Assembly: GCA_020630975.1 (NCBI GenBank)
Contig: JAHDID010000008.1
Span: 82,823-146,822 of the forward strand
Source: Verrucomicrobiota bacterium
Lineage (GTDB): Bacteria > Verrucomicrobiota > Verrucomicrobiia > Verrucomicrobiales > DEV007
DNA length: 64,000 bases
Direction: 5' to 3'
In this document: positions 2,355-53,654 of the stretch, one piece after another
Position numbering within the stretch: position 1 is the first letter of the stretch
How the letters are laid out: each line of letters begins with the position of its first letter
Position numbers and translations under genes: made by a program
Notes under the pieces: model-generated
Told to the model about the DNA's origin: nothing
The model's database searches: none
What the model saw: only the letters and a program-made list of their open reading frames with translations

Positions 2355-2373
2355 TCCGAACTAACCCACCCAA

Positions 2374-2436
2374 TTCAATAGGGTACAGAAATTTTTAAAT
2401 AGGGTACAATTTCTGTTCAATAGGGTACAATTTAAT
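2374..2436 (+). repeat. 21-bp-phased repeat array, 3 units (locus 1)
   Basis: Three consecutive 21-bp units start at 2374, 2395 and 2416. Each has the core AATAGGGTACA (at 2377, 2398, 2419) after TTC or TTA, followed by 7 variable, mostly A/T bases. A partial inverted copy (TACCCTA, 2442-2448) follows. The same unit with the same 21-bp period is found at 24930-24971 and 52109-52171, always in this orientation. Spacing of two helical turns suggests a protein-binding array. It is too regular and its spacers too short for CRISPR. Confidence 0.85.
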
Positions 2437-2487: not shown

Positions 2488-3417
2488 CTAGCGAGTCACT
2501 GGAGCCGGGCTGGTGAATGCTCGCTCGATAGTGATCTCCCCACCATCGAAGATCACACGGTCGATCGGCGATACGGCCACATCCTGCTGACTATCGACGA
2601 GCTCTGTCACACCGCGAGCTGACAGCTCACCAGTAGAAGGGACAAAAGACACGGTCTCAGCACTGCCACGGTAGCCACCATCACGATGCTGCACCTTGGC
2701 ATTCAGCGCCTTCAGCACAGGCGTAGCGGCAGCCTGATCGATCACCAGAGAATCAGCCGTCAGGGTGAACTGAGCATGCGTCAGCACCACATTACCACTG
2801 TAGATCAGCTTATCGTCGGTCGTCTCCACCGTATCATCCGAGGCCAGCATAAAGGTCGTCTCACGATCTGCGACAGCTGGCAAGCTCTCTAGCGACCTCT
2901 CAAATTGGGCAATAGGCATGTCCAGATCGCCATGCTCAGCGATAGCGAGCTGAGAGATAGCAGCCCCCCCTGCCTCGGCATGGATGTCAGTACCAGCGGC
3001 TTCAGCATCGCGATCCGCCACTATCAGCACCTTTCTCTCGATACGAGGCGCCGCAGGCTGGGCATCACCATCTGCCACGACGAGCTGAAAGACGTGCTCC
3101 TGGCGCTGCTCCTGCACCATCGTAGGCTGAGCTGTCTGAAAGCGCTGCAAACCCAGCACGCAAGCCCCGACACACACCGCCACGACAGCTGCCATCTTGG
3201 CAAAGTCTGTCCAGCGCATCGCAGGCTGCGGCAGTGGCTGCATAGGCAGCACCACATCATCCGATGGACTCGCACTACCCGTAGCAGGAGCCTGCACTGT
3301 CTGAGCCAAGATGGCCGAGATCAGTTGCTCATCATCGCCGCGTCCCAGACGTGCGTGCTCTGCTAGCAGGGCATCTGCCAAGCGATCCTGGGCTGGTGAT
3401 AGGTCTTTATCGTTCAT
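2488..3417 (-). CDS. Anti-sigma-factor-like membrane protein with OstA/LptA-like C-terminus
   Basis: 309 residues. The cytoplasmic N-terminus (1-70) is followed by one membrane segment (about 73-91, DFAKMAAVVAVCVGACVLGL) and a periplasmic part. The last 110 residues (about 195-300) resemble an OstA/LptA-type beta repeat: KLIYSGNVVLTHAQFTLTAD, then GSAETVSFVPSTGELSARG. In that family such repeats bind lipopolysaccharide or form a beta-jellyroll. The gene lies 74 bp downstream of an ECF sigma factor on the same strand, the typical place for its anti-sigma regulator, so it probably holds the sigma factor at the membrane and senses an envelope signal. No zinc-finger anti-sigma motif is visible. 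The anti-sigma role is inferred from position and topology; the OstA-like match is by pattern only. Confidence 0.6.
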   Translation of the reverse strand: MNDKDLSPAQDRLADALLAEHARLGRGDDEQLISAILAQTVQAPATGSASPSDDVVLPMQPLPQPAMRWTDFAKMAAVVAVCVGACVLGLQRFQTAQPTMVQEQRQEHVFQLVVADGDAQPAAPRIERKVLIVADRDAEAAGTDIHAEAGGAAISQLAIAEHGDLDMPIAQFERSLESLPAVADRETTFMLASDDTVETTDDKLIYSGNVVLTHAQFTLTADSLVIDQAAATPVLKALNAKVQHRDGGYRGSAETVSFVPSTGELSARGVTELVDSQQDVAVSPIDRVIFDGGEITIERAFTSPAPVTR

Positions 3418-23984: not shown

Positions 23985-24848
23985 ATGATCAGAAAGAAAC
24001 TAGCCATCGCCCTAGCCATAGGTCTACCCATAGCAGCCTACACTCAAACTGCAGTCGAGATCGCGACTGACTACGAGAACCAAAAAATCGCTGCCATCGA
24101 GAAATACATCACTGACAACAAGGATGCCGCCGATCTCGACCAGGCATTCTCCATCCTAGTAGGCGCACACATGACCATGGGCGCCATGGATAAAGTCCTA
24201 GACGTGCTCGACCAGCGCTACGAGCTAGCACCCAAGGGAGAAAAAGCTCTGCTCGGTACTCTGATCGGCGACATCAGCCGTCCTTACATCGAAATCAGCT
24301 CGCAGAATGGTGAGAAAGAGCGTGGTAAAAACTTTGTCAAAAGGCTGAAAGCCGACCTCGAGCCACACCCTGAGTCAGAGCAGATCAATGGATTCATCGA
24401 CCAGATCGCTGCCGACCTCTACGTGCCAGGCATCGGCGATACCATGGACCTCAAATTCACCGCCACCAATGGCAATGAGATCGACATCTCTGCCCTGCGC
24501 GGCAAAGTGATCCTCGTCGACTTTTGGGCCACCTGGTGTGGACCCTGCATCCAGGAGATGCCCAATGTCATCGAGGCCTACGAAAACTACCACGACAAGG
24601 GCTTCGAAGTCGTCGGCATCTCTCTCGATGATGATATCGCTGTGCTAGAAGAATTCATGTCCGACAACGGCATGCTCTGGCCGCAATATTTCGACGGCAA
24701 AAGCTGGGGCAACGAGATCGCAGGTGCCTACGGCATCAAAGGTATCCCTGCTACCTTCCTGATCGGCAAAGAAGGCAAAATCATCGCTACCAACCTACGC
24801 GGCCAAGAGCTCGAGGTAGCTGTGAAAGAAGCCCTCGGCATCGAGTAA
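23985..24848 (+). CDS. TlpA/ResA-like thioredoxin-fold protein
   Basis: 287 residues. Signal peptide RKKLAIALAIGLPIAAYTQT. An N-terminal helical part (about 25-145, TPR-like: AFSILVGAHMTMGAMDKVLD) precedes a thioredoxin domain (about 148-287) with the redox motif W-C-G-P-C at 184-188 (ILVDFWATWCGPCIQEMP), the cis-proline in GIKGIPATFLI and the insertion strand typical of AhpC/TSA-type TlpA proteins. It would act in the periplasm as a thiol-disulfide oxidoreductase, for cytochrome c maturation or protein repair. Single gene. Confidence 0.9.
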   Translation: MIRKKLAIALAIGLPIAAYTQTAVEIATDYENQKIAAIEKYITDNKDAADLDQAFSILVGAHMTMGAMDKVLDVLDQRYELAPKGEKALLGTLIGDISRPYIEISSQNGEKERGKNFVKRLKADLEPHPESEQINGFIDQIAADLYVPGIGDTMDLKFTATNGNEIDISALRGKVILVDFWATWCGPCIQEMPNVIEAYENYHDKGFEVVGISLDDDIAVLEEFMSDNGMLWPQYFDGKSWGNEIAGAYGIKGIPATFLIGKEGKIIATNLRGQELEVAVKEALGIE

Positions 24849-24929: not shown

Positions 24930-24971
24930 TTCAATAGGGTACAGTCCCGACTGAATAGGGTACAATCCGCC
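24930..24971 (+). repeat. 21-bp-phased repeat array, 2 units (locus 2)
   Basis: Two consecutive 21-bp units start at 24930 and 24951; cores AATAGGGTACA at 24933 and 24954. Preceded by ...AAAT, so the 15-mer ATTCAATAGGGTACA is identical to loci 1 and 3. The array ends about 4 bp beyond the stop codon of the minus-strand gene at 24975. Spacer bases are GC-richer here than at the other loci, while the core is exact. Confidence 0.85.
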
Positions 24972-24974
24972 CCA

Positions 24975-25604
24975 CTACTCCCGCGGTGCCCGCTCGATCT
25001 CGCCGATCACGCGATATCCGCTGGCCGTTACCTCAAACACCTCCAAGCTCACTGGCAGAGGTGTCTTTTCGTAGATCCCGACCAATGCTGGACCAAAGTC
25101 GGTCAGATTCCCTCCGCTCGCGGGAAAAACGTATAACACCTGCCGATCGATCACCACCACGTGCAGTCTATCGCCCAGCGTCTCGCCGAACTGTCCGACG
25201 AAGTGAGGCGATGTGATCGCACTCGTGTGAAAAGGGCTCTCCCCCGCTACGATCGCGTAGGCGATGACACCCCGGTGATCGCGGATATACTTCGGCTCGA
25301 TGCTCTTGGCCAGCTCGTCTGCCGTCGCCCCAGCCCGAGCCGCAAATGCCTCCCACTGCATACCCGACTCCTGCCAGCTCTGATCCGTAAAAAGCCGCAC
25401 CCCATAGCGCCAAGTGTAAGCGGCTGCGAGCTTAGTCTTTTTCGCCCCCTCCACTTTGGTCTCGATATCGGCCTTCTCAAAAGCCCCCTCAAACAGCAGG
25501 CCGATCTGCCGATCGTGCTCATCCGCCGAGGCGATCGAGACAGTCATCCCGAGCATCGCCAGCACCACTGCGGCACAGATAGAAAAGAAATGAGAGGTTG
25601 CCAT
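24975..25604 (-). CDS. Secreted protein, unknown; possibly a chalcone-isomerase-like fold
   Basis: 209 residues from ATG 25604. Signal peptide FFSICAAVVLAMLGMTVSIA. Mature part: LLFEGAFEKADIETKVEGAK, AAAYTWRYGVRLFTDQSWQE, KSIEPKYIRDHRGVIAYAIV, FHTSAITSPHFVGQFGETLG, LHVVVIDRQVLYVFPASGG. An alpha/beta protein without a motif I can name; the length and strand pattern are loosely like chalcone-isomerase-like periplasmic proteins, which is only a suggestion. An in-frame extension to 25730 lacks similarity to a signal peptide. The stop is right next to a 21-bp repeat array. Confidence 0.7.
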   Translation of the reverse strand: MATSHFFSICAAVVLAMLGMTVSIASADEHDRQIGLLFEGAFEKADIETKVEGAKKTKLAAAYTWRYGVRLFTDQSWQESGMQWEAFAARAGATADELAKSIEPKYIRDHRGVIAYAIVAGESPFHTSAITSPHFVGQFGETLGDRLHVVVIDRQVLYVFPASGGNLTDFGPALVGIYEKTPLPVSLEVFEVTASGYRVIGEIERAPRE

Positions 25605-25671
25605 CGTATGTTTGTTGAGTTGGATTGAGGCCTGCTGAGAGGCATCGATGCCTCCCACCCCTTTTTCGCTC

Positions 25672-26268
25672 ATGATTGCATTTTTACAAGGCACCCTAGA
25701 GGAGAGCTGGCCAGGCCGAGTCATCATCAATGTAAACGGCCTAGGCTACGAAGTGATAGTGCCGACCATCGGCGATGGCGACTTTGGCCAGGTCGGATCC
25801 ACCGTGAAAGTACTCACCCACTTTCACGTGCGTGAGCAGGAGCAGACCCTCTACGGCTTTCCCGATGAAGAGGCTCGCGACCTGTTTCGCCTGCTGCTGC
25901 AGCGAGTCTCCGGCGTCGGCCCAAAGGTAGCCATGTCTATCCTCAGCGGCGTATCGGCCAATGACTTCAAGCAAGCCGTGGTGGCCGGCGACATCACCGC
26001 GATTTCCAGCATCAAAGGTCTCGGCAAAAAGACCGCCGAACGAGTCGTGCTAGAGCTACGCGACAAAGTCGGCGTGAAAGACGCCTGGGAAACACAGACC
26101 AGCCCCAACGCCACTCCGACTCAGCGCGCACGGGGCGATGCGATGCTCGGCCTGATCGCTCTAGGCTACAAGCAAGCTGAAGCCAAGAAGGCAACCGATA
26201 AGGTACCAGACACTGTCACCGATGCCGATGCCATCCTGAGGGCGGCGCTCCGGCTGCTACAGAGCTGA
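25672..26268 (+). CDS. ruvA: Holliday junction DNA helicase subunit RuvA
   Basis: 198 residues from ATG 25672. OB-fold domain I (MIAFLQGTLEESWPGRVIIN, VNGLGYEVIVPT), domain II with two helix-hairpin-helix motifs (VSGVGPKVAMSILSG and IKGLGKKTAERVVLELRDKV), and a C-terminal domain III (ARGDAMLGLIALGYKQAEAK, then LRAALRLLQS) that contacts RuvB. RuvA binds Holliday junctions and loads the RuvB motor for branch migration in recombination repair. No ruvB or ruvC is adjacent. Length and all three domains match the family. Confidence 0.96.
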   Translation: MIAFLQGTLEESWPGRVIINVNGLGYEVIVPTIGDGDFGQVGSTVKVLTHFHVREQEQTLYGFPDEEARDLFRLLLQRVSGVGPKVAMSILSGVSANDFKQAVVAGDITAISSIKGLGKKTAERVVLELRDKVGVKDAWETQTSPNATPTQRARGDAMLGLIALGYKQAEAKKATDKVPDTVTDADAILRAALRLLQS

Positions 26269-29338: not shown

Positions 29339-32300
29339 CTACTGCTGCACACCACCGATACCCGACTGCGCATAGAGCTCGAAGTTACTCAAGCGCCAGT
29401 CGTGATTCATATTACCGCGCGGACCCTCGCCTTCATCCTGCATCTCTTCCAGCGGATGTAGTCGGCGCCCCATGACGGCATCGACAGTCATTTCCTCGGT
29501 CTGAGTGTGACTTGGATTGATAGCCGGTGCGAAATAAGTCCGCAGGTTGTAGCCATGGCGATCATTTGCGATATCCCAAACCGGACGCGTCTGCTCGATC
29601 ACGATCTGATGCGGCTGATCGGTCAAAACCAGTCCTGGGAACTTCGCTAGCCAGTTACCACCAGCATCGCCTACGACTGTCATCTCACCATTTGGCAGAG
29701 GGGCACCTGCTGCACCTAGGATCTTGATCTTAAGCACCGTCCCCGGATCCACCAACCCTGAATAGAAAGGCATCGGAGTGAGGAGCTGAAAGTCTTCGCC
29801 ATCACCCTCACCTATACCGTCCTCGCCATCCTCGATGCCACCGATCAGACGGAACCCTTCTAGGATACTAGATCCTCCAAAGAACTCGGCGCCCAGCGCC
29901 TCGATCACCATCACATCCAGATCCTGATCGGCATTGTCAGAGAGAATCGGCTCGAAGAAATCGCTACCGATCTCCACCTGATTGATAATCTCATACTCCG
30001 CAGGTGGCAGATCATCCTTCACCACCACATCCACTTCGATCGCTCCAGTATCACCAGGATTGAGCAGCTCAATGTTCCAAACCAGAGAGGTCGTTCCATC
30101 AGCATTCACCACCACCTGATCAGGTGTGACTGAAGCGCCTGTATAAGTCAGCTCCTCGGGTAGCGTATCGGTGATCACCACATTCCTAGCTGGACCTGCC
30201 TGCTCCGAAAACGGAGCATCGTGGGACTCTTTATTTCCGTAGTCCAGCGTATAGGTATAGGTCTCTCCCGGCTCGCGGGTCTGCTCACCATCATTTTTAG
30301 TGATGTAGAGATCTGGCGCCACGATCATGACCTCTGCGGCATCCGTATCAGTCGCAGAACTACCCTCAGTAGGTGCTGTGTCATAGCGAAGCTCCGCGAC
30401 ATTGAGAATATCGACGCTATCGACACCACCACGCTCAAGTAGCAATGATGCCTCCTCGCTCAACTCGACGATAAATTCCACCGCATAACGCTGAGCGACA
30501 TCGGCACCATCTGTGAGCAGGAACGGCTGAGATAGCTGAACATCCAAAACTGTGGTCGTGCTGGAGTCGGTATAATCCACACCTTCAGTCAAAACCGCAC
30601 CAGTATTCAAATCGATCACCCGAATCGAGCCCTCCACGATTTCACCAAAATTGGTCTGCCCCATCTGAGCGATATCATCGTAGAAATTCACATTATAAGC
30701 AGCCGAAGTCGACTCTGCTGTGTGCTGAGCTTCCAGACGATAGACCAGCGTCTCCCCTAGAGTCGCGACAGTCGTGTCATTATTGACATCATCACCGTCA
30801 TGGTCGGCAGCCCCTGCATCGAGAGTCAGAGGGTTGCCATCGTCATTCAGTCCATAGTAGCCAGGGATGAAGTTATCTTGATTCGATACAAACTTCTCAA
30901 GATCCAAAACCGGAGCCACCACATCGACCACGGCTATATCTGTGATCGGAGCAAAGTCCTCCCCAGATGAAAGCGTAGCCGTATTGGTAGCGGTATCGCC
31001 ATCCGCCAGCTGCCCATCGTTCGCCACTCTCATCGTGATCTGTATAGCAAACTGATCTACCTGCTGTCCCGCATCCCCCGGATTGACCAGAGAAAGGAAA
31101 TCGAAGTCGAGTGTCTGAGCACCAACAGTGAGAACTGGACCTCCAGCCGACAGATCGAGCTGCTCTAGCAAGACGCCGCCCTCAGTCATAGCAGCCGTAT
31201 TCCCCGAAGCGAGGATCTGAGCACTGACGAACTCAAAACCCACAGGGAAAGTATCGGCAATCCTTAGATTCTCATAGGTCCCGTCACCGATGATAGTGCG
31301 TAGCTCATAGGTCACCGTCTCACCTGCTGCCACATCGACATGGTCATCACCAGCCCCGGATATGTCATTATCGCCAGTGGCATCGCCTTGATCCGTGTGT
31401 TGGCTAGCCCCAGTCTCATCTAGACTCGTGCTCACGATCACTTTCTCAAACTGGATCGAGCCGATGGTATCGACGTGAGCATCGTCAGACTGCGTCTCAC
31501 CAGCACGACCAGTATTCTCATCTGGATGACTACTCCAATCAACAGACGCTGTATTCGGCACCGTCTCGTTGGGACCTACTGTGCCTGTCAGACGCGCATC
31601 GTAGGTGACCACCAGCGCTTGGTTCAGCGCCAGACTGTCCATCGAGATCACAAATCCACTACCATCAGCATCCGCTGCGATGGTGTAGTCCACACCTGCC
31701 GTCAGCGCAGTAGTGGCAGGCACGCCGTCGGTATGCAGCACCACCGAAATCGCCGACAATGCACTATGCAGCGTGATCCTAGAGTCAGATAGTGTGTCTG
31801 TGATGACCACATCGAAGGCATCGGCAGACGAAGAATTTCGTGCGGTGTCATACATCGAGACATCACCACTACCATCGGTCTGGAATGTACCTGAATCCCT
31901 ATCAAAGGAGGACTGCAGATCATTACTCGCATCAGCATCGCCGAGATCATCGAACATACTGTGATCCACCACTAATGTATAGGTAAACACATCGCCAGCA
32001 TCACCGACAGGCTCTTCAGCCGTGGTATCGCCCTCATCATCGCTGAGATCCCCATCTGCATTCTCGACAAATTTCTTCAACTCCAACTGAGGCTCTACAA
32101 TATCGACAGAAGCGATATCAGTATGGCTCTCGCCCTCGGTCTCCAGAGTAGCCGTATTTGTCGCGACACTTGCGTCGGCGACCGCAGCCACATCGGTAGC
32201 GCGAGTGACGACACGGATCGCTACGGTATCAATATCTAGGCCTTCCTCGCCAGGATTGATAACCGTACCAAAATCCATGGTGACGGTCTGTCCTGAGACA

Positions 32301-35300
32301 CTGACGATACCTGCACCCACAGATAGGTCCAGAGCATCAAGCTCTGTGGTACCCACACGCATGTTGGCAGTGTTCCCAGACTCTAAGATATCCACTCCCA
32401 CTAGCTCGAAGCCGGCAGGAAGCACATCCGTGACGACGAAATCGTCGTAACTGCCCTCACCTATCGTAGCACGCAGTTCGTAGGTGACGGTCTCTCCTAC
32501 CACGACATCTTCGAAATCGTCGGCAGGCACTGCTCCTAGATACAGGCCACTAATCGTGACCGCATTGTCCGTAGTGGCATCGACTCCAAAGGCCAAGGCC
32601 AACCAATCGTAATCCGCTAAATCCGATACATCGTAACCGCTGATGTCTATCACCTCATCAAACGTCCCAGAACCAGTGAGAGCCCGTGCATTTGCCCCCG
32701 CTCCTGACAAAGGAGTCTCTGTAGACACATCGTCTCCGGAAAACAGATTATACCGTGTGCCTGTGCCGCCGAACGACGCATCCTGAACATCGCCATTTGA
32801 GGTCAGAAGGTTCAAATCCCACTGCAAGTCCTGGTTATCATCATCTGCACCCCGTAGGTGGGTATACAAGGTATTACCCGCACCGACATCGTAATCGAAA
32901 CGCAAGCGAATCTGCGAACCCTCGATATCCGCCAGCTGAGTCAGATCGATCATAGTAGCTACGCCACCCTCGTCTTCTGCCGAATAAGGAGCGCTAGGGC
33001 TCAAAGCCAATGTCCCCCCTGCTATGCTCCACTCGGAATCCGGAGCCGCATACCAATTGGGAGTCGCTGTGCCAGCGATACTATCAAAGTCGCTATTCAG
33101 CCTGCCAGAGTCACCATGGTTGGTCGACAAAGTCCCGAAGTCGAGACTCTGAATCATAGGCACACCTAGATCGATATCACCTGTACCATAGCCCAACTCA
33201 TTGTGCTGATCAGACCCTGTCTCAGTCAGACTCGTACCGACTATGACCTTCTCAAATAGGACCTCTCCAACTGTCTCCACATGAGCGCTATCACTATCGC
33301 CATCTCCAGTCCGCTCATCATTAAAGCCTTCGTCACCTGGCTCAAGCGGATTATTATCCCATGCGACCGATGCCGTATTGGGAGCTGAATTATCCTGAGT
33401 AGGATCGACATTGTATTGCTCATTCGGATCGGCGGCATCTCCCAACTGACCATCAAAAGTCACTCGCACACTCCAATCGGGCTGAAGCTCGGCCAGAGTG
33501 ATATTGAAACCAGTCCCACTATTCACAGGAGTCACCGTAGCTGGATTGGGAGCCACAGGCGCTCCTGCCGCATCGTAAACTGTCGCCACAACTGTCCCGG
33601 GCACCAGTGTCACACGCGGATCGACGAACAGATCAGATATCTCGACATCGAAAACTGCGACATCCATATCCCCGTGATGAGCCACATCTAGTGTGTAGTG
33701 GAACGTATCGCCAGCGTCTCCGGAAGGAATACCAACCAGAGAATAGTAATTATTTTGTACCTCTGCCGCTGTGAGCACATCTGTGTAGAAACGAGAATCC
33801 GTAATCGCTCCAGTGAAATCAGCCATCTGACTGGTCAACTCTAGCGGATCAGCTCCACCGTGCCCCGTCACGACACTACCCAAAGAAAGTGCTGACCCAT
33901 CGGACCATGCCGAGAAATTCGCTAACGTAGCGGTATCGACATGACTACCATTGATGAACAACTGAATCGTATCGGTAGCAGGATCTGCAGTGACCACAAA
34001 CTGAGCGAACCCCTCGCTCAATGCAGCCGGAAGCTCCGCCTCTATGGTCTGGAGAATAGCTGTGCCATCACCAAGTACCTCGCGGACCGAAAGTTGCACT
34101 CGATTACCATCGACAAGATTTAGCGACATCCCAGTGTTACCACCGACTTCCCAAATCACTTGATCGGCCGTCGACGATGTCGGGAATAGATCTGGCAGCT
34201 CCACACCTACCTCGATAGAGACAGGCCCCGTGCCTGTGGTCGAAGTGGTGAATGTGGTGCTAAGAGCATCAGAAATCGCTGTCGGGAAACGCATATTATC
34301 TCCCTCGACATTCTTCACAATGTATAGGTCCTGCTCCACCAGCACTACTTCGGCCGTGTCGGTCGCTTCCTGCTCGGTGAGCACGTCCCCGACCAGCGCA
34401 TCGTAGTTCATCGTAGCCGTATTCACGAAGGCATCGTCCTCGACATGATTGGCTAGATCTGGCACATAAGCCTGCACCGCTAGTGTGATCGTATTATTGG
34501 AAACGTCATTATCTCCAGGCGCAACGACTGTTCCTAGATTAAAAGTCGTCACCCCATCAGTCTCACTGATCGCCACCTCGCTGGCCAACAGACTGGAACC
34601 ATCTGCCTGTTGGAAATTGCCAATCGCACCCGTAAGTGGGTTACCCGTAGACGGGTCGACCACGAAGGCATTCACAAAGGTCAATTCGTCACCATTGAGG
34701 TTTGCCAGATTCAAGTCATCGGTGATCACAAGATTCTCGGTGGTACCCTCTGGCACCTCGACAGTGATGTGGTAAGTCACCAACTCGCCTACCACAACCT
34801 CGGGCACGACAGCCTCTGGAGTGATATTGGTGAAGCTAAAATTATCAACTAGGATAACCCCAGCACCAGGAGCACGGAAACGTGAATCATCAGGCACCTC
34901 GAAACCCTCGCCATCCGCAGTGGCTGGCAGATCAGCGGTATCGCCTGAAGTCGGATCGGCTAAGCCGAAGCCAAACACACTCGACCAGTCATTGGCACCA
35001 CCACCGGTCTCGCCAGCAGCTCCTGCACCGCCACTACCATTACCCAGGCGTAGCTCAAAGGTATGCCAACCATCATTATTAGCCCCCATACCGAAGTCTA
35101 GGATGCCACGATCTGAACCACGGTTCGCGTTATTGATCGACTCACCAACAGTTCCACTATGGACCCTGTGACCATCGTCTGTCGTAGATGTGGATGCCAC
35201 ATTCCACTGCCAATTATAAATCACCTGCTGGCCGTCGATGTATAGCTGCACGACATCATCGATATTCTCCGCAAAAGCGAAGATCCCATCGGCATCAAAA

Positions 35301-38300
35301 AACTCGCCGGTGTAAACGATTGTCTCATTAGTTCCAATAATAGCCCAAGGCCCTGTTCCATTCTGAATATTACCCGCTACTGGACCATCCACCACACTTT
35401 GGCTCACCACATTCCCAGAAGTGGGATTGGTCACACTATTCACATCGTAAATAGTTTCGACGAGACCTGAAGCCAAGGTATTCAGCGAGCGAACCGTCAC
35501 GTGATACCCCTCGTCTTTGGCCTCGAAGGATACAGCGCCTGAGAAGTCAGCGGCATTTACCTCGCCTAAATTGAACGTCTGTGTGTCATTACCATCGACA
35601 GACTCAAACACGACCTCGAGCTCACCATTATCAATTCCATTACGAGTCACCGCATCGAAACTCATCATGTAGGTATCACCCACCTGAAAGCCCTCGACCG
35701 TCTGAGACATCTCAGCATTATCACCACTGAAAATACCTACCTGACCAGAGCCAACAGCTGTCGACCCATAACTGGACGCCGTGCTATCGATCACACCAGC
35801 ATTCTCACTAAAAATCCAGTCAGTCGATATCAATCCAAGACCATCATTCTCTGAACCTAAGCTTTCTTCATCCGCGCCATTTCGCGCAATGAAACCATCC
35901 TGAACCGAATCCTCGAAACCGGCATCAGCCAAATCCGGACCGGGTGCACTCTGCTCCTCAATCAGGCATGCCACCTGACTCCCTGTAAGCGCGGTGCTAT
36001 AGACTCTAAAGTCGTCTAACGACCCATCATAGAGGGGATCACCATTCAAACGGGAACCGAGCAAAATATCAGCTAGTGAACCACCGGTGGCACCAGACAT
36101 ATCCAGGGTAACGGTATCAGCCAACACTCCATCGGTGTAGATACGAATATTCTCCGTATCACCAACCAGATCTACCGTCATGGCGACATGGTGCCAGCTA
36201 TTATCGAAGACCACCCCTGTATTGCCCACGCTGGCAAAACCTGAGCCATCATCGACAAAAAAGGTCAGCTCATCGCCACTGCCGCTACTGGATGCCTCAA
36301 ACACTCCCCCCAGACCAAGAGGACGAACATTATTTCCCTGAGCAGCATCCCCATTCACCCAGAATGAAACCGTCCATCCATCCTGAACAGCAGGATTATT
36401 GATGTCCTGAATCGTGGCATTATTTGCGATTCTCACTAGAGCCTCGCCATCGCGATCTGGAGTCTGATCACCAACGACATCGCCTTGAAAACTAAGCCCC
36501 AAAGCGCCAGTCGCGCCATCGACGCTAGTCGGATTCGTGCTATCGACACCGTCCACGATCTGATCGATCAATTGAATCGAAGCGGTGGTGTTCCCGGTCG
36601 AATCAACTGGATCCTGCCCATTACCATCTTCAAACTGATAATGAATCACCAGATTATCATCCTTGGAGTCTGTCGATCCAGTCTGTGTGAACTGTGTCGT
36701 GACGACCTCTTTCGTGATAGTCGGAGTCAATCCTGCAACTAGAGCCACATCCGCATCAGTGATGACTCTCTGCTCAGGATTATCTCCTGAAATATTATCA
36801 TACTGCAGAGTAACCGTATTTACCACTTTCTCCTGAGAACCAGCTTCGAGAGCATCCGCCTGGATCGCATCAGTCATCCGAGCATCTAGTTCTATCCTGA
36901 TCGGAGGTCCATCCAGAGCGAATTCATTGAAAGACACCGTTGCTCCATTGCTCTCGTCTATAGTGAAATTAGATGAAGTTGCCGTCGCCCCAAATACTTG
37001 GACTTCGGCTAAGGATAGTGTGCCATTGCCTTCATTATTCAATCCATTCAGCTGCACGCGAACGAACCGACCGCTGACATCGCCAAGGGCAACCCCATTG
37101 TCCCCAAGTTCTTCAGCAGACAAAGCGAAAGATCCTCCTTGATCAACAGATCCCGAACTAAAGTAATCCTGCCCCCAGACTTCTGTACCTCCAGATGCCG
37201 GATCACCATCCCAAACCGAAACTCGGAAATTCGATAGGCGAAGCCCACAGCAGTCGGCACGGTTGAATAAGACAACTTCATCCATTTCAGCGGATGCACC
37301 TAGATCGACCTGCCACCAATTATTAGCATTACCATTAGTGTGGGTCGTTGAGCCTAGACCCCAGTTTCCATCAGTATTTCCATCTATTGCACGGTCAGCT
37401 GTACCTCCAGCACCAGTACTGGATTGCGATGCTGTACCATTTAGAGCGAGGTTCTCAATCACTCGAACAGACCCCGGAACTAACTCCAGCCGAGGGTCGC
37501 TAAGAAGATCCTGAATCACCAAGTCATAGGCATTAGCTGTCGAGTCGGGAGTGTGATCGACATTGATCGTATAAGTGAACACGTCACCAGCGTCGCCAAC
37601 TGGAGCCGCATCAAAATCAACCAACTCACCGGTCACAGGATCGGTCACATATTTGCGAATCTCGAGTTCAGGCTCGACCACCTCCACATCGACCGAGTCG
37701 CTGACCACTCCAGCAGTCGAAACCATTGTCGCAGTGTTAGTCAATATATCACCACTCATCGCCGACTGATGGAATAGACGATCGCCAAGCGAATTACCGG
37801 ACAATGTGCCACCTGCCGTATCCATCGACAAGGTCAGCTCCTCTCCACCAGCGCCTTCGAAATAATACAGATCCAACTCATGGAAACCCTCGTGGAAAAA
37901 GGTATGGACTTCCGGACCTGCCCCTGGCCCTGGTGCCCCGTGGCTGCCATCATTATTCACCACCAGGTCGTTATCCACATAAAGAACAGAACCATCGTCT
38001 GACGAAGTCGTAAATGCGACCTGTATTCCATTACTTAAATCGCCATCTAGGTCATCCGCCTCCAGCACCTGAATCACACCATCCAGATGGATCTGAGCTC
38101 GATCCATTCCGATACCCAGTAATGACTCATCAGCCATCCCAGTACTGATATTGAGACTGATATCTTTATCCTGAGGCTGGTGGAACGCCGTGTAATCCGT
38201 ACCCTCGACACCCAGAAAGCCACCCAACGTCCCACTACCCGTATGACTACCTGTCAGAGAGACAAACTCAGCGTGATGATCATACGTATCGAACCGGTCT

Positions 38301-41300
38301 TCAACAAACCTAACCTCGTCTGTGTGCCCGTGCAGATCATAAAATTCTCCATTAAGATGTGGCTGAAGAGTACCCGAGTCCGACTGGTGAAATAGCAGAT
38401 CACCATAATCAGTCGAGCCGTTGACCTGAAGCTCCAATCGAGCATCGCCACCATCATTGAATCCTACCAACTGAATCCGGTGCAGGCCTGGAGTATTAAA
38501 GGTATAAGTGGTGGTGGCGGAATCCGTACCCGAAGTAGACGGAAATCCATCGCGGCTCAACACCTCTGCCCCATCGATCCATAGTTTGGAACCCCGGTCC
38601 GAAAACAGCTCCAAATCAACCTGAATACCACTGGTCGTAGGATCCTGATCGAGATTCGGCTCGATTTCGATATACCCTTCCAAATTTACAATGAAGTTAT
38701 CATCAGTCTGGCCACTGGTCGTACTAGCAGGACGATCCTCACCGAAAAAGCCTCCTAGGTTTCCTCCACCATAGGAGCCACCGGAACGATAGTCGATCCC
38801 GCCATAAACTAAGAAGTCGCCGTCTGGCTCCTGACTATTCACAATACGCAGAGCATTGCTCACTGAACTCGTCTCACCAGATGAGCCCCCGGCCACCTGT
38901 GAGTAAATATAGCGCCCTCTCAGTCCAGAGGTGAGATCACCATTGGTCGGCACTGTGCCACTGTTATCCGTATCCTGCTTCACCAACGCCTGTAGGGCGA
39001 TTTGGATCTGGTTTTCATGTGCGTCCGTCTCAGTAGAAGTGAGTGCCGTCACTGAGCCAAGATTCCAAGATATTTCATCGTTGATACCATCTCCATTCGA
39101 ATCCGTTTCGGTGAAGAAGCCATTAGCCAATAAATGAGCAATACCTGCGGCATTGACCAACCTCGTAGTCGGATCCACGTGTAGCGACTCATCTAGATTA
39201 GTCACATCCAGATTCGAACCGACTCGAATCTGATACGAATCGGCCACATACTCCATCGTACCATCCAGGAGTGGCAAGCGATCGGTGATAACGACACCAC
39301 CCAGATCGCCATTCTCAAATGAAGCGGTTAATACATAATCAATCGTTTCACCAATCGTCAGGTCCGTTCCAGTCGTGTGAGCCAAGGAAGTCGGGTCCGC
39401 AATAAAACGCGAAATTTGGACATCATTCAACTGTCCCCAGCCCCAACTACCGTCATCAGTGTCGTAGAAATGAATTTCATAGACACCATCAAAGTCGAAA
39501 CCAGCAGGCAAATCGGCAGCCGTCACATTGATAGTCTCGGTACCACCATTACCACTCTTAAAGAAGTGCGCATCGTAGACACCAGTCGCCACATTGTAGA
39601 TAGCGAAGCCTTTCTGCCCTGTGCCGGTGCTAGTACCTCCATTAGCTGAAATGACATCGTTTGGCGTATTATACTGAGCCCCGAGCCCATCTTGGTCACC
39701 CTGCCCCCCAGCAAGCTCTACCGCTAGAAGGGTAGCACCATCGAGAGTGCTACCATCGAACTGAAATGAAGGACTGGTGAACAACAAATTATCGTGAGTC
39801 GCATCACCAGTCGCACGCACTCCGCCGCCATCATTGCTACGCCACTCAGTGGAGCCGTTCTCAAGCGTCCACCCATCCGGCTGCCCATTTGTGAAATCCC
39901 ACTGCAGATTCTCGGCTAGCGTCTTCTCTCCATCGGTATTGAGACTTCCGATCTCCTTAGTAAAAGACTGACCTGGAATCAACACACTCGCTGAGTCCTG
40001 CCAGCGATGATCATTGTTGAAGGACCCTGGGTCACTCGTATCGCCAGTTCGCTCAGTCGAGTCCCCGTAGAATGTAGAAGCCTGACCTGGGTCACCATTG
40101 ATACTGGTCCAGTCTATCGATGCGGTATTGACGATCACGTCGCCAGGCTGCACCAGAAGCGGATCTATGCTCACCGAGTAGCGAATGGTGATAAATTCAT
40201 CTTGAGCACCATCAGGTAAACTTGCGTCAGAACTATGCAGCAAGTCCACATCTGAAGTATCAAAAAACTGTAGCGCAGGCTCTTGGACAGCCACACTACT
40301 GATCCCCGTCAAAGTGGAGCTCGTGATCTCGATCAACGGCTGATCAGCCGTCGACATGGAATCGATAAACTCGATCAGCACAGGATTAAATCCCATATCT
40401 CCTCCCGTCACGCGTACATTGCCTTCCCCGATGGCAGTCAACTCTTCTAGAGCAGCCTGAATCTGAGCAATCGTCGCATCATGAGCCAGCTCGACAGTCT
40501 CTTCTCCATTGAAGGTCAGTTTAAAGTTTCCATCGAGCATATTGGAAGAAAGTGTCTGCACCTCGCCACCAAAGTTTGTCAGGACCGTCTCCTGAAGTGG
40601 AATACCATCCAGAGAACCAGTAGCGGCGAACTCAATGTTTGGAACATCCTGACCAGCCAACACTCCGGCAAATTCCACAAACACATCACCGCTACCAAGC
40701 GGGCCACCGGTCACGATAAAGTCAGAAGCACCATAACTCGGAAGCGAGCCCAAAGCCGCCTGAATATCATCAGCCGAAGCATTAAAAGGCAAATTGATAC
40801 GCCCACCAGAGCCATTGTTCGTCACTTCCCCATCAAATTCGATCTGGAAAGTACCAGTCGTCGCACTCAAAGAAAGTGCCTGAATCTCGTTTCGTGTACC
40901 TGCAGGAGCGGTTTCAGCTATTGTCGCATCAGCACCACCTGTCAAAGAGTTCACAATGTTTAGCGCTTCGACATTGGTATCCGCTAAACCACCAACAAAC
41001 TCCACCGAAATCGAACCGGTATCTAGCGGTCCACCAGTCACAATCACATCACCAGAGTCGATCGTCGCTAGACTCTCGAGAGCCGCTTGTATTTGCGCAG
41101 CTGTTGCATTGTGTGGCAACGCAGCGGATGTCGTCAGTCCATCAAACTCGATCTCAAACGTACCACCGCTATAATTCGAAGTGATTGTCTGAATCTCATT
41201 TTGAATGACAGTACCAATCTCTCCCGTACCACCTGACGATAGATCTGTGGTGGTTCCATCAAAATTAGTCTTTACCGCGCTGAGCACATTGACCGTAGTC

Positions 41301-44300
41301 GGATCCATACCAGGCGGAATCGGGTCATAAAGACTGATATCATAGGCACTAGAACTGAAATCTTCACCACGGTGGCGAACTACCAATTCATACACAAAAC
41401 CTCCCGGCGCATTGGGATCGTCTGCCACCGTCTTCTCGATCAAAAGCTGTGGTTCTCGCACTCGCACATCTTCTGCGCGGATATCATCGCGGAAGGTATT
41501 CACACGATCGCCGCCTGCGACATTGTTATTCGAATTATCATCGTCTTGATCGTTATCGTAGAAAATCGTCGCCCAGTTATTCTTCAGATCACCCGCATTG
41601 GTATCCTGCGAATCCAACGCCACCACCTTATAAGTGAGGCGAATCGTCTCTGACACAAAATTCAAGCGATTGGTATTCTCGATATCACCCAAACGAAACT
41701 CGACGATCTGCTCACTCCAGATCTGATTGGCCGCATCTTCGACCTCCTCGAGAAATGTCACCACGCCATCATCATTGGAGTCCGCAGTCACGTGGCTCAC
41801 AGCCCCTCCCAGATAGCTCAAGGTCCCTGCAGCTACACCAGCCGCTGTCTCTAGGGCTGCAATAGTCGTCACAGCACCACTGGCGTCGAGAATTTCGACC
41901 AAATTGCCCGACTCATCATGAGTCACACTACCGACAAATACTCCATCGCTGTCGGATACTTTGGAAACCAGCTCTGCCTCAGCTATCTTACCAGTGCCAT
42001 CGGCATTCACAAAACCCAGGCCATCGTCCAACCAGTCACGTACCGTCGCATTACTAATCCGACCTTCGATCAGCTCCAGATCGACTTCGTAGTCAAAAGT
42101 CTCACCCACGACCACTTCCAAACCATCGGTATCATTGAGCGCTGTGTTTGCCTGAGAATCACTATCAGGCACCAGGCGCTTAGCGATAGTCGGCGTCGCC
42201 GTGACGTTCGCGATATCAGCGGGCTCCTGCCCTTCGATCACAAAGTTGTCGCCATCGTCGCGGCTAGTGTAGTTCTCCAAAATCGCTAGGTTAGTCGTAG
42301 GCGCGGCAGCGACCGCTTCATTGATCAACAGCTGATAAGTGACGATCACTACATTTGAGCCGTCTGAAGTGTCATCCGTCTCGAGACCTCCGATAATACC
42401 TAGCTGTTGAGTTTGATCCAGAACACCCTCAGTCGGATCCAACAAACGAATACCATCGCCAAACAAAGCGGAACCATCCGTAGTCAAATCGGTACCATCG
42501 ACATTCTCAAACCAAGTCCCAGTAGAGATCAGAGTACCGTCACCGGCACGAGCTTGTAGATTGATCCCGCCTGCTGGAATCGAAAACTTCGAGCCTATCG
42601 AATCACGAATGGTCAAATCAAAGCCGTCTGCATGACCTGTATTCACCAACGTCAGCGCAAAGGTCACTAGGTCACCCTCGTCTGCGCCCACCACATCTGC
42701 ATCGATCGGGCTATTGATTCCGGTAAAGGTCTCACCATCATACCCGACAAGATCAGAAGAAATCACCGAAGTCGTCGCTCCACCCAAAGTAGGATCAGTC
42801 ATCCAAGCGGCTACATCCAATGGCCCAATAGCATCAGGTAAAGTATCACCATTGGCATCCACCTCACTACCTGCACCGACAAAGGTGGGAGAGGCGTTAT
42901 TGTTATTAGGAATCTCAGGTATAAACTGAATCTCATCTCCATCCTCTGTCGTCACTGCACGGGTCGCTCGGTCGACGTCGATGATACCCTTTAGGATATT
43001 GACCTCAGGGCTCTCCACCTGTACCATCACGATGTCGCCCACTTCCTGAGGCTCGAGGAATGTATTGCCCTGATAGGACTGCACTTTATTCGTGAGGAAC
43101 AACTCGTCTGCCATCGGATTACCCGAAGCCGTCAGAGTAAAAAGCAAATCCACGGTAACACCGTTATTATCAGGGTCATCGTAAGTGCCAAAATTAAAGG
43201 CCACTTGGTTATTCGCGGCATCCACCTCACCGTCGACGTAGGTCACCGAGCCGTCGCCATTCTGCTGGATATACCCCACTGTCGGAGTGATGGTAAATAG
43301 AGACGCATCTCGACTGCCATCGATGCTTAGACCATGGTTTGGACCGAATGCAAAGCTGCCAACCCCTGGGATAATGAGACCCGCATTATTGGGGTCGTTG
43401 ATACCAGCTTCAGGCTCCCACAGATTATCAGTGGTACTGGAGGTATCATTGAAATAATCTGGGCGAGTCACATCGTATAGCGGCTGAGGAAGAAAGTCCG
43501 CCAAGACCAAGTCCTCAAAGTCGCCCAATGGGAAAGTCTGCGTGAGTCGATAAGTCACCGTATCGCCAGGCTGGATACGAGGCAGAATCCCGTTATTTCC
43601 ATCTGGTCCATCAGGAAACTCAATACCCCATGTCGACTGATCCGTAGTCTCACGGATCGCGAAAATCGATTTATCGATCGTGCCGACACCGATAGGTACA
43701 TCTTCAGTCCCACCACCACCGGAGGTGATGGTATTATAAATATCGAAATGCGGCTTACCATCAGGTCCGAGTATAGGATCGACGAAACCACCCTCCTCAC
43801 CAGGTCCAGCACCAGTGTCAGGCTCTTCATCACCTAGGACAGACGAATCCACCCCAGAGTTTCCATTACCGTCGGTCACAGGATCCTCGTCACCAGTTCC
43901 GTTTGACAGTTGATCATCCGCATCGTCATCGTCATATCGACTCTCGACCACATCAAAAGTCAGATCATACTCGTTAGACAATCTTTCAGCCTCGTTCAGA
44001 GACGGGTTACCACTGGGAAAACTCTCAGTGTATTGATCCTCTACCACTGCCCAGTACCGGACGATCACCTGTACTTCACCATTATTTAGGTGCTGGTCAT
44101 TATCATAGACGACCACGTCGTCGTTCTCAAAATATAGACCTCCGATCAACGCACCACCCACACCAGCATCTTCCGTGAGGTCTTGATCCATCAGTTCTTT
44201 CGATATATCGAACTGAATGAAAGTCTGCCCAGTGTAGCTATCGTCAGACTGAGCCGTGCCATCACTACCAGTCTGGCCCTGATTCACACTGTCAAAGTCC

Positions 44301-47300
44301 TGAAAGCCATCGGCATTTCTAGAATCCGTGTTACGAACGAAGGACCAATTATCATCAGAGAACTTAATGATCCGATCCGTACTCCCTGCCGTAGCTGGAT
44401 CATCCGAGAAATGATTGTACCCAGACAACTGAATCTCAGGTGTGAAGTCCACATTCGCCCCATTTACTAGGCCAGTCGTTGCTTCACCACCATTCTCACT
44501 CAGGCGATCTGCATCCACACCGAGGACATTAGTCCTAGCCGCCTCGACCAGTGCCGCATACTCCGTGTCGTTTGGATCGTAGTCCTCAAACAACAATCGC
44601 TGACCGTCTGACATACGATCACCCGATACTCCGCCCGCTTGGCCTAAGACATATGCCCAGTCAAAAGACGCATTTGTCGGGTCCAAACGAGGATCATAGC
44701 CCTCCTGAGTGATAGCAGCCTTCGGCGGGAAGAGACCGCCCGTTAATCCTGCAGGATCGACCTCGATCGTGTCGAATGCCCCTGGATTATCAAAATTAAA
44801 ATCAATACCTGTGGTCGAGTCTCCTGAGATAGTTACCACTCCTGCACCCCACGCCGCATCCACGGCAGCCTGAATATCGGCAGTGCTGGCATTGTAGGCA
44901 ATGGGACCGGTGAATGTTCCATTCAGGTCGAGACGATACGTGCCGCCAGGAGTGGTTCCCGCCACCCCATCATCGCGAAACTCCAGCCTCTGAATCTGGG
45001 TCGCACTGGGGTCATATTGCTCGTGATCCGGATTCGACACATCGGTAGCCGAGGCACCGATCCGCACATTAGCGATCGCGACAAAATCTGAAATACCGAA
45101 TACGATTTCATACTGAATAACCGATCCGACGCTGACCTGACCATTGCGATGGTTCTGCAATCGGTCTGGATCATCAAAATCACCGAAGTCAGGTTGATTC
45201 AGAACCTTTAGGGATTTATCTGTCCCAATAGGAACATCCGTGGAGTCGGCATTACCGCCAAAGTTTGGCACATCGTCCGATGTCTGACGATTGTCATCAT
45301 CTAACGGATCTGATGTGTCATCATCTAACCCTGCATTGAGACGAACAGGGTCCTGTGAATCGCGAGGGTCTAATCCCTCATGTATCGGCGATACTTGCAC
45401 TGTATTTGGCTCACGATCACCGTCAGCTATGTTATCCCCCTCGTGGTCAGGATCAAAATCATCATCTGGATTTTCTGCATCCTCATCCAAACCTGTGATG
45501 GAGTGATTTCGTGGATTCTCTTCGGTACCTACCTGATTTTCATCATCGATACCATCCTCGTGACCATCCCCATCCGCGTCCTCTGAATCAATGAGAGTCG
45601 TGGGGCCGCCCGTGACACCAGCATCGAACTCTGAGTAGTAAAAGTCATAACTCACCACCAGATCACCCTGTTGACGACCGAGACCATCTAGTGAACTGAC
45701 TTTCTGCCCGACAATCGTGGAATCACCGGTACCATCACCATCCAGATCCTCGTTGTGAAAAGTCAGCTTAAAATTATTACCGGGGTGCTGCAGCTCCAGC
45801 GGTATGATAAAGGTATTCGGCACACCACCTCCAGGACCTGTGTGGATAGTGGGATTATTCTGATTTGTATCATAATCACCGACCAGAACCTCTTGCTCCA
45901 GCGAACCTGTAAAAAATGTCGATGTCGAGTAATCGAATGGAATATACTCCACCCCCACTGGTAGATCCGGCGTATTGACCGAACCTGTATAAGCCGCATT
46001 CACAGTCGGAGCTGTATTACTAGGTGCTCCAGTCCCATCATATAGCGCCTGATTATAAAACACATGGGTCTGGCCGTGCTCATCAAAATACTCAACAAAA
46101 GCAACGGAATTAAAGTCCATGTCGACCATCTGGCCACTGGAATTCGCCTGCTGCAGCTGGATCTGCTTTACGATCGCATCCGTGGGCCCTTTATCATCGA
46201 TGATGAAGCTGTGAAAGACCTGGTCCTGCGCCATGGTCATATTCACGTAAAATGTCTGCTCATTATTCGGCCCGACTCCGAGTGCATGATGCTGTGAGAA
46301 TGCCTCAATATGCTTGTGGACATCCATCAATGATGGCAAAAAGCCAAACTCAGCCACATGATCACCGAAGTCTGTCGGTGTATTCGACGGGGCAGTCACC
46401 ACCTCGGTGACTGGCGTCTCTCCAGGCGTCAGAGCATAGATGGGCTCATCGCCGACACTTAGATTCACGTAGTCAGTGACACCATCGTTATTGGCATCGA
46501 CAGGCGTCTCAATGATGTGATTATCAAACTCATCGCAACCCAAGAGGTAACCTCCAGCTGCATAATAAGTCAGCTCATGGTCTGCATCTGCCATATTGGA
46601 GACATCCGCTGTGAATGTAATAGTCTCCGGTGGCTGACCATCGGTAAAACTACCGAATGGCAATTGAATCGCATACAGTATATCGCCTGGATTGCCATAG
46701 ACCACGATCCTCTCAGGATCGGATGGATCAGTGGGGTCGCCGAAGAGCGGGTGTACCGCTTCGCCGATACCATCGCCATCGGTATCCACAAAGTGAACCA
46801 CCTGCACCAAGTCTTGGCTAGCGAGATCGAGCCCAGAGTTGGTGATGTTTGACACATTACCAATCCCATCAGGAAACGGATTGATCGGATCACCACCAGC
46901 ATCGAGTAGACCGTTAGCCGCGTTGATGTAGGTACTGCTCACGGCTGCATCATTAGGGTCAAGATCCAGCCAGTCAAAAGCTCCGTCACCATCAGTATCG
47001 GTAAAACTGCCCCCTAATGTATCACCAAAATCCAAACTACCAGTGCCGCCACTGGTCGGATCCGCATCATCTATGGTAATGATGTCGTATACCGGTGCGC
47101 TTGGATTGATCACATAGTCCCCCGCTGCATCGAGCACGCGGTAAGTGGTATTCCCGATCCGCGTGGTCAAGATATTTCCCGTCTCGGGTGCCGGAGGTGA
47201 GGCGCTCAAGTCGAGATACACAGACGGGTGGTAGATCACCTCACCAGGATTGGGTGCCGCATAGTCAGCCAGGACTCCGCCCGCATCGAACAACGCCGTC

Positions 47301-51224: not shown

Positions 51225-52082
51225 TCAAATTAAGCTTTGCAGAGTCATCAACGCTAGGAACGCCCCGACCACTAGTAAAATTCTACCAAAAGTCATAGGG
51301 GAGTGCCTGACCTCCATCCCCAGCCACTTGTCCCACTGCGTGGAACCTTTGGACATGAGAATAAAGAAAGCGAGAATCATCGTCGCGACAGCTATCAAAG
51401 GATAGAATAACCCGACACCTAAAATGTAAACTAAAAAAGATCGATAAATGCTCTTAAACATCGGGATGACTGAACCATCTCGAGAAGCCACACGGATACC
51501 CATCAGCGCCTTTCCCGGAGTGGGAATGCCCAGTGCAATCAGAGCGCCCTCCAGCGCATGCCAGGCAAAAAGGCAGATGTAGAGGGTGATGGCGAACTTC
51601 TGGTAACTCGGATCCTCGGCCATCTCAATGTACATCTCGCGCATCTGAGCGGTCGTCATACCCTGCTCCGGTTCCGGTATCTCGACTCCACTGAAAAAGA
51701 CCACCGCGGTCATCACCAACATGTAATCGTACCAGCGCGCGAGAAATCGTGAAAACGGCCGCGCGCGGACACTATCGGTGTGCGCTGCCGAGTCTGAGCG
51801 AGGCGGTGCGTAGGGATCTCTAGGCGCGTCACTACGCTCAGCAGAGTCGGGGGCTGCACCATCCTCATCCGGCAAGCCCTCGCGCCGCTCGCGCTCGCGC
51901 TCCAGTCCTGCTAAGGCAGATGCCAGCGAAGGCTCTTCGGAGATCTGCTGCCAGCCATCGGCCGCAGCGGCGTGCCAGACCTTGTCCTCAGCCGTCACCT
52001 CGCCATCGCGCAACATTCCGACGAGTTGATACTGGGTGAGAGGTCCGACTTTTTCACCAGATAGGGCGACGTAGTATTCCAT
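51225..52082 (-). CDS. GYF-domain and RDD-family membrane protein
   Basis: 285 residues. An N-terminal GYF_2-like domain (about 3-52: YYVALSGEKVGPLTQYQLVG, then VWHAAAADGWQQISEEP) is followed by an acidic, Pro-rich linker (about 60-105) and an RDD membrane domain (from about 106: RPFSRFLARWYDYMLVMTAV, then LFAWHALEGALIALGIPTPG with KALMGIRVASRDG, and YILGVGLFYPLIAVATMILA). The RDD family is named for its conserved Arg and two Asp; some members are Na+/H+ antiporters. The GYF-like module may bind proline-rich partners. Encoded 10 bp upstream of the GH57 gene; a functional link is not obvious. Confidence 0.85.
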   Translation of the reverse strand: MEYYVALSGEKVGPLTQYQLVGMLRDGEVTAEDKVWHAAAADGWQQISEEPSLASALAGLERERERREGLPDEDGAAPDSAERSDAPRDPYAPPRSDSAAHTDSVRARPFSRFLARWYDYMLVMTAVVFFSGVEIPEPEQGMTTAQMREMYIEMAEDPSYQKFAITLYICLFAWHALEGALIALGIPTPGKALMGIRVASRDGSVIPMFKSIYRSFLVYILGVGLFYPLIAVATMILAFFILMSKGSTQWDKWLGMEVRHSPMTFGRILLVVGAFLALMTLQSLI

Positions 52083-52108: not shown

Positions 52109-52171
52109 CTAGATAGGGTACAGAAGAAATTCAATAGGGTACAATTTTTCTTAAATAGGGTACAATCGCCC
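52109..52171 (+). repeat. 21-bp-phased repeat array, 3 units (locus 3)
   Basis: Three 21-bp units start at 52109, 52130 and 52151; cores (A/G)ATAGGGTACA at 52112, 52133 and 52154. The middle unit has the 15-mer ATTCAATAGGGTACA also present at loci 1 and 2; the third shares TTAAATAGGGTACAAT with locus 1. It lies in the gap between two minus-strand genes, about 40 bp beyond the stop of the sulfatase gene at 52210. Confidence 0.85.
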
Positions 52172-53580: not shown

Positions 53581-53654
53581 ATCCCTCTCACTATGAGTGA
53601 GCAGCATCTCGGGTCAAAACCGGATAAACGTGTGGCAGAAAATCGTAAGCCAAA

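Follow-up and report, generated by a model that had tools for sequence, protein, structure and literature searches.

Phased direct-repeat arrays in a Verrucomicrobiota genome as candidate sites of a chromosome-wide DNA-binding protein

Plasmid iterons such as those of R6K and pSC101 are asymmetric direct repeats of about 20-22 bp, i.e., two helical turns, that share one orientation. The chromosomal matS, SlmA and Noc sites are palindromes that occur singly and only in certain regions of the chromosome. The bacterial chromosome is commonly described as folded into domains of about 10-20 kb, and we know of no sequence-fixed, regularly spaced anchors established for them. Uptake sequences (USS/DUS) are evenly spaced, unbiased in orientation and in excess in non-coding DNA (PMC1939737). 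They occur in species dialects (PMC3630211) and at low density in genomic islands, with one DUS per 400-1100 bp (PMC7371117). STAR elements of Staphylococcus are interspersed intergenic direct repeats with variable spacers, and their loci and numbers are species-specific (PMC3532100).

The window analyzed here is a stretch of 64,000 nucleotides (G000:C40:82823-146822) of the source genome, G000, a draft of 7.14 Mb in 158 contigs. It contains three arrays of a short repeat:

2377..2429, +: array 1, three units with cores at 2377, 2398 and 2419 and a period of 21 bp, between dnaA (401-1972, -) and a gene with an LptA-like domain (2488-3417, -)
2368..2376, +: left border of array 1, positions -9 to -1, consensus CnCAAATTC by information content
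2430..2435, +: right border of array 1, positions +1 to +6, consensus ATCGnC, of which only AT agrees here
24933..24964, +: array 2, two units with cores at 24933 and 24954, between the convergent redoxin-like gene (23985-24848, +) and an ORF without Pfam match (24975-25730, -)
52112..52164, +: array 3, three units with cores at 52112 (GATAGGGTACA), 52133 and 52154, between an RDD-family gene (51225-52082, -) and a sulfatase gene (52210-53607, -)

The eight cores lie where the preliminary description had placed them, all on the plus strand, seven reading AATAGGGTACA and one GATAGGGTACA. Only 0.94 matches are expected in the window, and none of 100 shuffles reaches eight. The leading TTC, described as constant, is variable, as units also read TTA, CTG and CTA. 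Other arrays are preceded by borders similar to the one at 2368..2376.

The array family of the source genome

Across the whole of G000, 342 exact pairs of ATAGGGTACA with spacers of 8-12 bp were found (186 forward, 156 reverse), whereas the reversed-pattern control gave 0. The remaining statistics for G000 refer to 1.19 Mb that were read (seventeen percent of the genome) together with the listed places of the genome-wide pair search. These 1.19 Mb, on nine contigs, hold 54 arrays, comprising 42 with two units, 11 with three and one with four; up to five units per array occur elsewhere. Scaling from the sample gives an estimate of ~270-325 arrays of 2-5 units for the genome. The interval between units is exactly 21 bp in 65 of 67 cases, and single units are rare, so the phased array is the functional entity.

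All 115 units compared agree at the core positions T-A-G-G-G-T, at the final A and at one more T ahead of the core, and the other core positions almost never differ. The extended unit reads A-Y-T-S-AATAGGGTACA-R-T, carries ~29 bits and has about four unconstrained bases behind it. Since a near-invariant core stands beside 3-4 variable spacer bases, each unit can be regarded as a recognition site of ~17 bp. Selection on the core, fixed spacing and two-turn phasing, as originally claimed from the window, are thus borne out by the units and the period of the genome-wide family. The outer borders of the arrays are conserved to -9 and +6 and random beyond, and no target duplication is detectable at them. 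Inspection of the array flanks by eye for a hairpin showed no covariation, and a literature search for the unit returned only incidental matches.

Decayed arrays are few (~5 versus 54 intact ones in the 1.19 Mb), and each lies roughly 1-11 kb from an intact array. A repeat of ~190 bp, 86% identical, occurs at C31:168432-168650 with an intact array and at C33:120088-120310 with a decayed one. A non-coding palindrome repeat of ~300 bp adjoins an array in both of its copies (G000:C40:62460-62760 and C15:179389-179692), and the genome contains several further families of short palindromic repeats at scattered places.

Spacing and gene context

The 45 gaps between arrays on the nine contigs have a mean of 21.6 kb, a minimum of 7.4 kb and a coefficient of variation (CV) of 0.54. 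Random placement gives a CV of 0.89-1.05, and none of 3000 trials with three null models produced spacing as even. With solitary cores counted, the CV is 0.59 and still below random. When the places listed genome-wide are included, only one of 65 gaps is shorter than 7 kb, versus ~18 expected. Loss of close copies by direct-repeat recombination was rejected as the cause, because the two relative orientations are similarly common below 12 kb (same 8, opposite 5). On its own, even spacing could also result from DNA uptake, from self-marking or from insertion immunity.

Gap length correlates negatively with GC content (rho -0.50, p 0.0005) and with a host-like codon score (rho -0.47, p 0.001), and three of the five longest gaps combine clearly low GC with low host-like coding. 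This is as expected of acquired islands, which we infer the long array-free gaps to be; the same correlations would also be expected of any old, non-mobile feature. A 75-kb array-free stretch in G000:C33 (~8.3-83.9 kb, loci L093-L097) has a GC content of 0.495 and atypical codon usage and is probably such an island; ARAGORN found no tRNA genes in the loci covering it. A long gene lengthens a gap as well (rho 0.45), as exemplified by a 19-kb gene in the window. This gene is a single ORF of 6406 codons (29339-48559, -), giant for a bacterial gene.

Array direction is not tied to neighboring genes. The 54 arrays comprise 31 on the plus and 23 on the minus strand, and orientation is independent both of transcription and of the orientation of the adjacent array. 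Hence, the initial rule that arrays share a strand and lie behind the stop of a minus-strand gene was an accident of a small sample. Random strand and spacing genome-wide would, by the preliminary description, have spoken against a role; strand is random, whereas spacing is far from it.

According to a simple codon-based gene caller, whose calls are approximate, only four of 55 elements lie inside genes, though coding sequence makes up 77% of the sample. Convergent intergenic regions hold 16 of 51 arrays versus a background of 15% (p 0.001), an approximately two-fold enrichment. Other arrays lie at 5' ends, between divergent genes or within coding sequence: a four-unit array overlaps or precedes every possible start of xerC, the selA start codon lies directly 3' of an array, and one array falls within the linker of dnaE2. 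This distribution, together with the lack of target duplication, contradicts the earlier idea of mobile 3' elements. No gene class is shared among the neighbors of arrays, and the neighborhoods of arrays of at least four units (xerC, trpB/leuC, proS, fabF/trpS) revealed nothing coherent as a cognate protein. The gene at G000 C15:67003 had no matching ortholog in 20 relatives, and no convincing empty site was found among paralogous stretches.

The closest relative and other genomes

The closest relative according to DnaA, G025 (64% identity), carries a corresponding system. It has 738 pairs with a core reading AACAGGGTACA and a period of 22 bp, with none in the control. The 22-bp period was revealed by the alignment of DnaE2. 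In 680 kb, about nine percent of this genome, there are 52 arrays, and 74 of 77 intervals are 22 bp. Gaps have a CV of 0.43 versus 0.74 for random placement (P 0.0008), and three gaps are shorter than 4 kb versus 8.8 expected; smaller, earlier subsets gave stronger values, and the 680-kb sample is the fair one. Arrays occur at intervals of about 9-13 kb. All 38 spacers of a 280-kb subset are distinct next to near-invariant cores, which argues that the arrays of G025 are old and individually constrained. Selection on the core and fixed spacing are therefore replicated in a second genome with its own core and period.

Three arrays appear to be orthologous between the two genomes. One lies in the same DnaE2 linker, in an insert of ~55 residues that is absent in 11 other relatives. 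The second (C31:7640 in G000, C25:5975 in G025) lies ~500 bp upstream of the same gene with side and orientation kept. The third (C33:133814 in G000, C41:620 in G025) also keeps side and orientation relative to orthologous genes, though at C41:620 the upstream gene differs and an apparent tRNA gene lies between. Thus, some arrays probably predate the split of G000 and G025. Roughly a dozen array loci could be paired between the genomes through a matched gene, and the array is retained at only about three of them, indicating high turnover. Despite the shared positions, all arrays of each genome have the core letter and period of that genome.

Most genomes of the same genus, which like G000 and G025 are draft assemblies, lack arrays. 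Searches for exact patterns with the 21-bp period found none in the relatives, including a class-wide scan, and a 21-bp search allowing three mismatches found only G018 and three places in G025. Samples of 60-100 kb from G027, G008, G022 and G033 and of about 64-80 kb from G005 and G035, searched de novo, showed no recurrent tandem words. In G018, the only array (L061, G018:C118) has three units whose cores end in TACG; the contig could be mis-binned or the segment transferred. An array at G000:C115:5624 resembles it. As arrays are missing from the other genomes of the genus except for the single one in G018, they are not essential to verrucomicrobial chromosome biology. Absence from close relatives, which the preliminary description had held to speak against a conserved role, is hence the case for most relatives, but the nearest one has arrays.

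Beyond the group, a Nostoc match was a low-complexity run, phage matches to the array were unrelated or due to chance, and no viral copies were recognizable as members of the array family. Four related IMG/VR contigs (L275, L277, L278, L281) contain a 21-bp-spaced pair of GGTAATCTAGGGTACAAAGTGGAGAATCTAGGGTAC that does not fit the extended unit and looks unrelated to the arrays. In L280 (3220-3262) and L279, the end of a phage lysozyme-like gene is a duplicated segment that codes for TLFR-ADC-TLFR; on the other strand this segment reads as two 21-bp-spaced TAGGGTAC words, probably a chance pair.

Chromosome organization and the alternatives

Together, the systems of G000 and G025 point to an undescribed chromosome-wide protein-binding system. 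Cores that barely vary next to unconstrained spacers argue for recognition by a protein, and the fixed two-turn period suggests that several protomers line up along one side of the helix. That arrays are evenly spaced, scarce in atypical stretches and indifferent to their orientation and to gene direction suggests that one site is needed per inherited stretch. We infer from these features a binding protein, its cooperative binding and an organizing role. In our preferred reading, to which we assign a probability of roughly 0.4, the arrays are multi-unit sites of a putative lineage-specific DNA-binding protein, most likely used in chromosome organization. One predicted protomer would read each asymmetric unit of ~17 bp, and the period of 21 bp (22 bp in G025) would set 2-5 protomers on one face, where they might bind cooperatively. 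Arrays would be maintained every ~20 kb in G000 and ~9-13 kb in G025, in either orientation and without disturbing genes, such that no inherited stretch of the chromosome is without an array. Most likely, they would serve to bridge, anchor or segregate the nucleoid at regular distances, by analogy with iteron-bound proteins, which pair DNA. Among the three ideas initially put forward, chromosome folding fits best. Behind it, two alternatives rank about equal, a self-DNA mark and a mobile repeat with target immunity.

Arrays might mark self-DNA, either as USS/DUS-like uptake sequences or as another self/non-self tag, and spread through uptake bias and recombination. A second mark near a first would add nothing, which would explain the even spacing, and the absence of orientation bias, the non-coding excess, the dialects and the scarcity in islands are likewise all present here. 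ComEC, necessary but not sufficient for uptake, is encoded in G000 and G025, yet equally in relatives without arrays. Cores with one or two mismatches outside arrays number 9/93 versus 15/218 for permuted cores, and this lack of a near-miss halo is contrary to a drive acting on single words. Moreover, the density is ~20-fold below that of DUS, and the functional entity is the phased array rather than the rare single unit. We therefore consider a self-DNA mark unlikely.

Arrays of 30-70 bp at ~300 places are very unlikely to result from point mutation and must have been copied, which every hypothesis needs to accommodate and a small transposed repeat would explain. Its units would be transposase-binding sites and its spacing a result of target immunity as in Tn7 and Mu; TnsB-type ends carry similar tandem sites of about 20-22 bp. 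The sharp borders common to arrays, their positions at gene ends and within the xerC start, and the DnaE2 insert, which of 13 genomes only G000 and G025 carry, are consistent with such an element. It nevertheless appears doubtful, because G000 (assembly 95.8% complete) has only one rve transposase domain, of IS3 type, and there is neither a target duplication nor an inverted partner end or full-length element. In addition, highly diverged spacers next to intact cores (as in G025) mark the copies as old, low-GC and codon-atypical stretches are array-poor, and recognizable viral copies are lacking.

Iteron-like replication control would have an initiator bind arrays at dnaA or at many dispersed sites. 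The unit length and the direct-repeat period of 21-22 bp resemble plasmid iterons, and array 1 lies ~400 bp from dnaA, adjoining the only DnaA-box-like site there (TTATGCACA at 2346). However, this array, singled out in the preliminary description for its place at the probable origin, is one of ~300 in G000, and they are spread genome-wide with no cluster at an origin beside an initiator gene. In 28 other genomes of the genus, the DNA up to ~1.5 kb from dnaA is free of arrays, the nearest one in G025 is ~2 kb upstream of dnaA among other genes, and GC skew keeps its sign at dnaA. The origin hypothesis fails, and replication control by arrays is very improbable. Least probable is a transcriptional element at gene ends (terminator, operator or mRNA element), since the enrichment in convergent regions is outweighed by an orientation unrelated to transcription, arrays in divergent regions and inside genes, neighbors without a common gene class and the lack of an Rfam match in the window.

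Within the preferred reading of chromosome organization, we tentatively propose a more specific version, a chromosome-wide ruler. A lineage-specific protein and phased arrays, with co-evolving core letter and period, might set domains of ~10-20 kb, akin to boundary or anchor elements of eukaryotes. Hundreds of identical, precisely mapped candidate sites are available, and the second species serves as a replicate. Whatever the function, two related genomes, each with hundreds of arrays and its own core letter and helical period, represent a clear-cut case of a recognition system changing genome-wide.

Compared to the USS/DUS of Pasteurellaceae and Neisseriaceae, the arrays share a short, asymmetric, over-represented word (AATAGGGTACA in G000, AACAGGGTACA in G025) with hundreds of copies, even spacing without strand bias in both genomes, non-coding excess, species dialects and scarcity in islands. 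Unlike these single words, they are phased tandem arrays, about 20-fold rarer and without a halo of near matches. As in STAR elements, the arrays of G000 are interspersed intergenic direct repeats with a conserved unit and variable spacers, but the unit is another one, the two-turn period is rigid, genomic spacing is even, and core letter and period are specific to each species (G000, G025). Like plasmid iterons, the arrays of G000 and G025 consist of tandem asymmetric units in one orientation with a period of ~two turns; unlike them, arrays of 2-5 units are dispersed chromosome-wide instead of forming one origin cluster. With matS, SlmA and Noc sites they share the character of short chromosome-wide sites and might share a role in the nucleoid, yet they are asymmetric phased arrays and occur in all long contigs examined.
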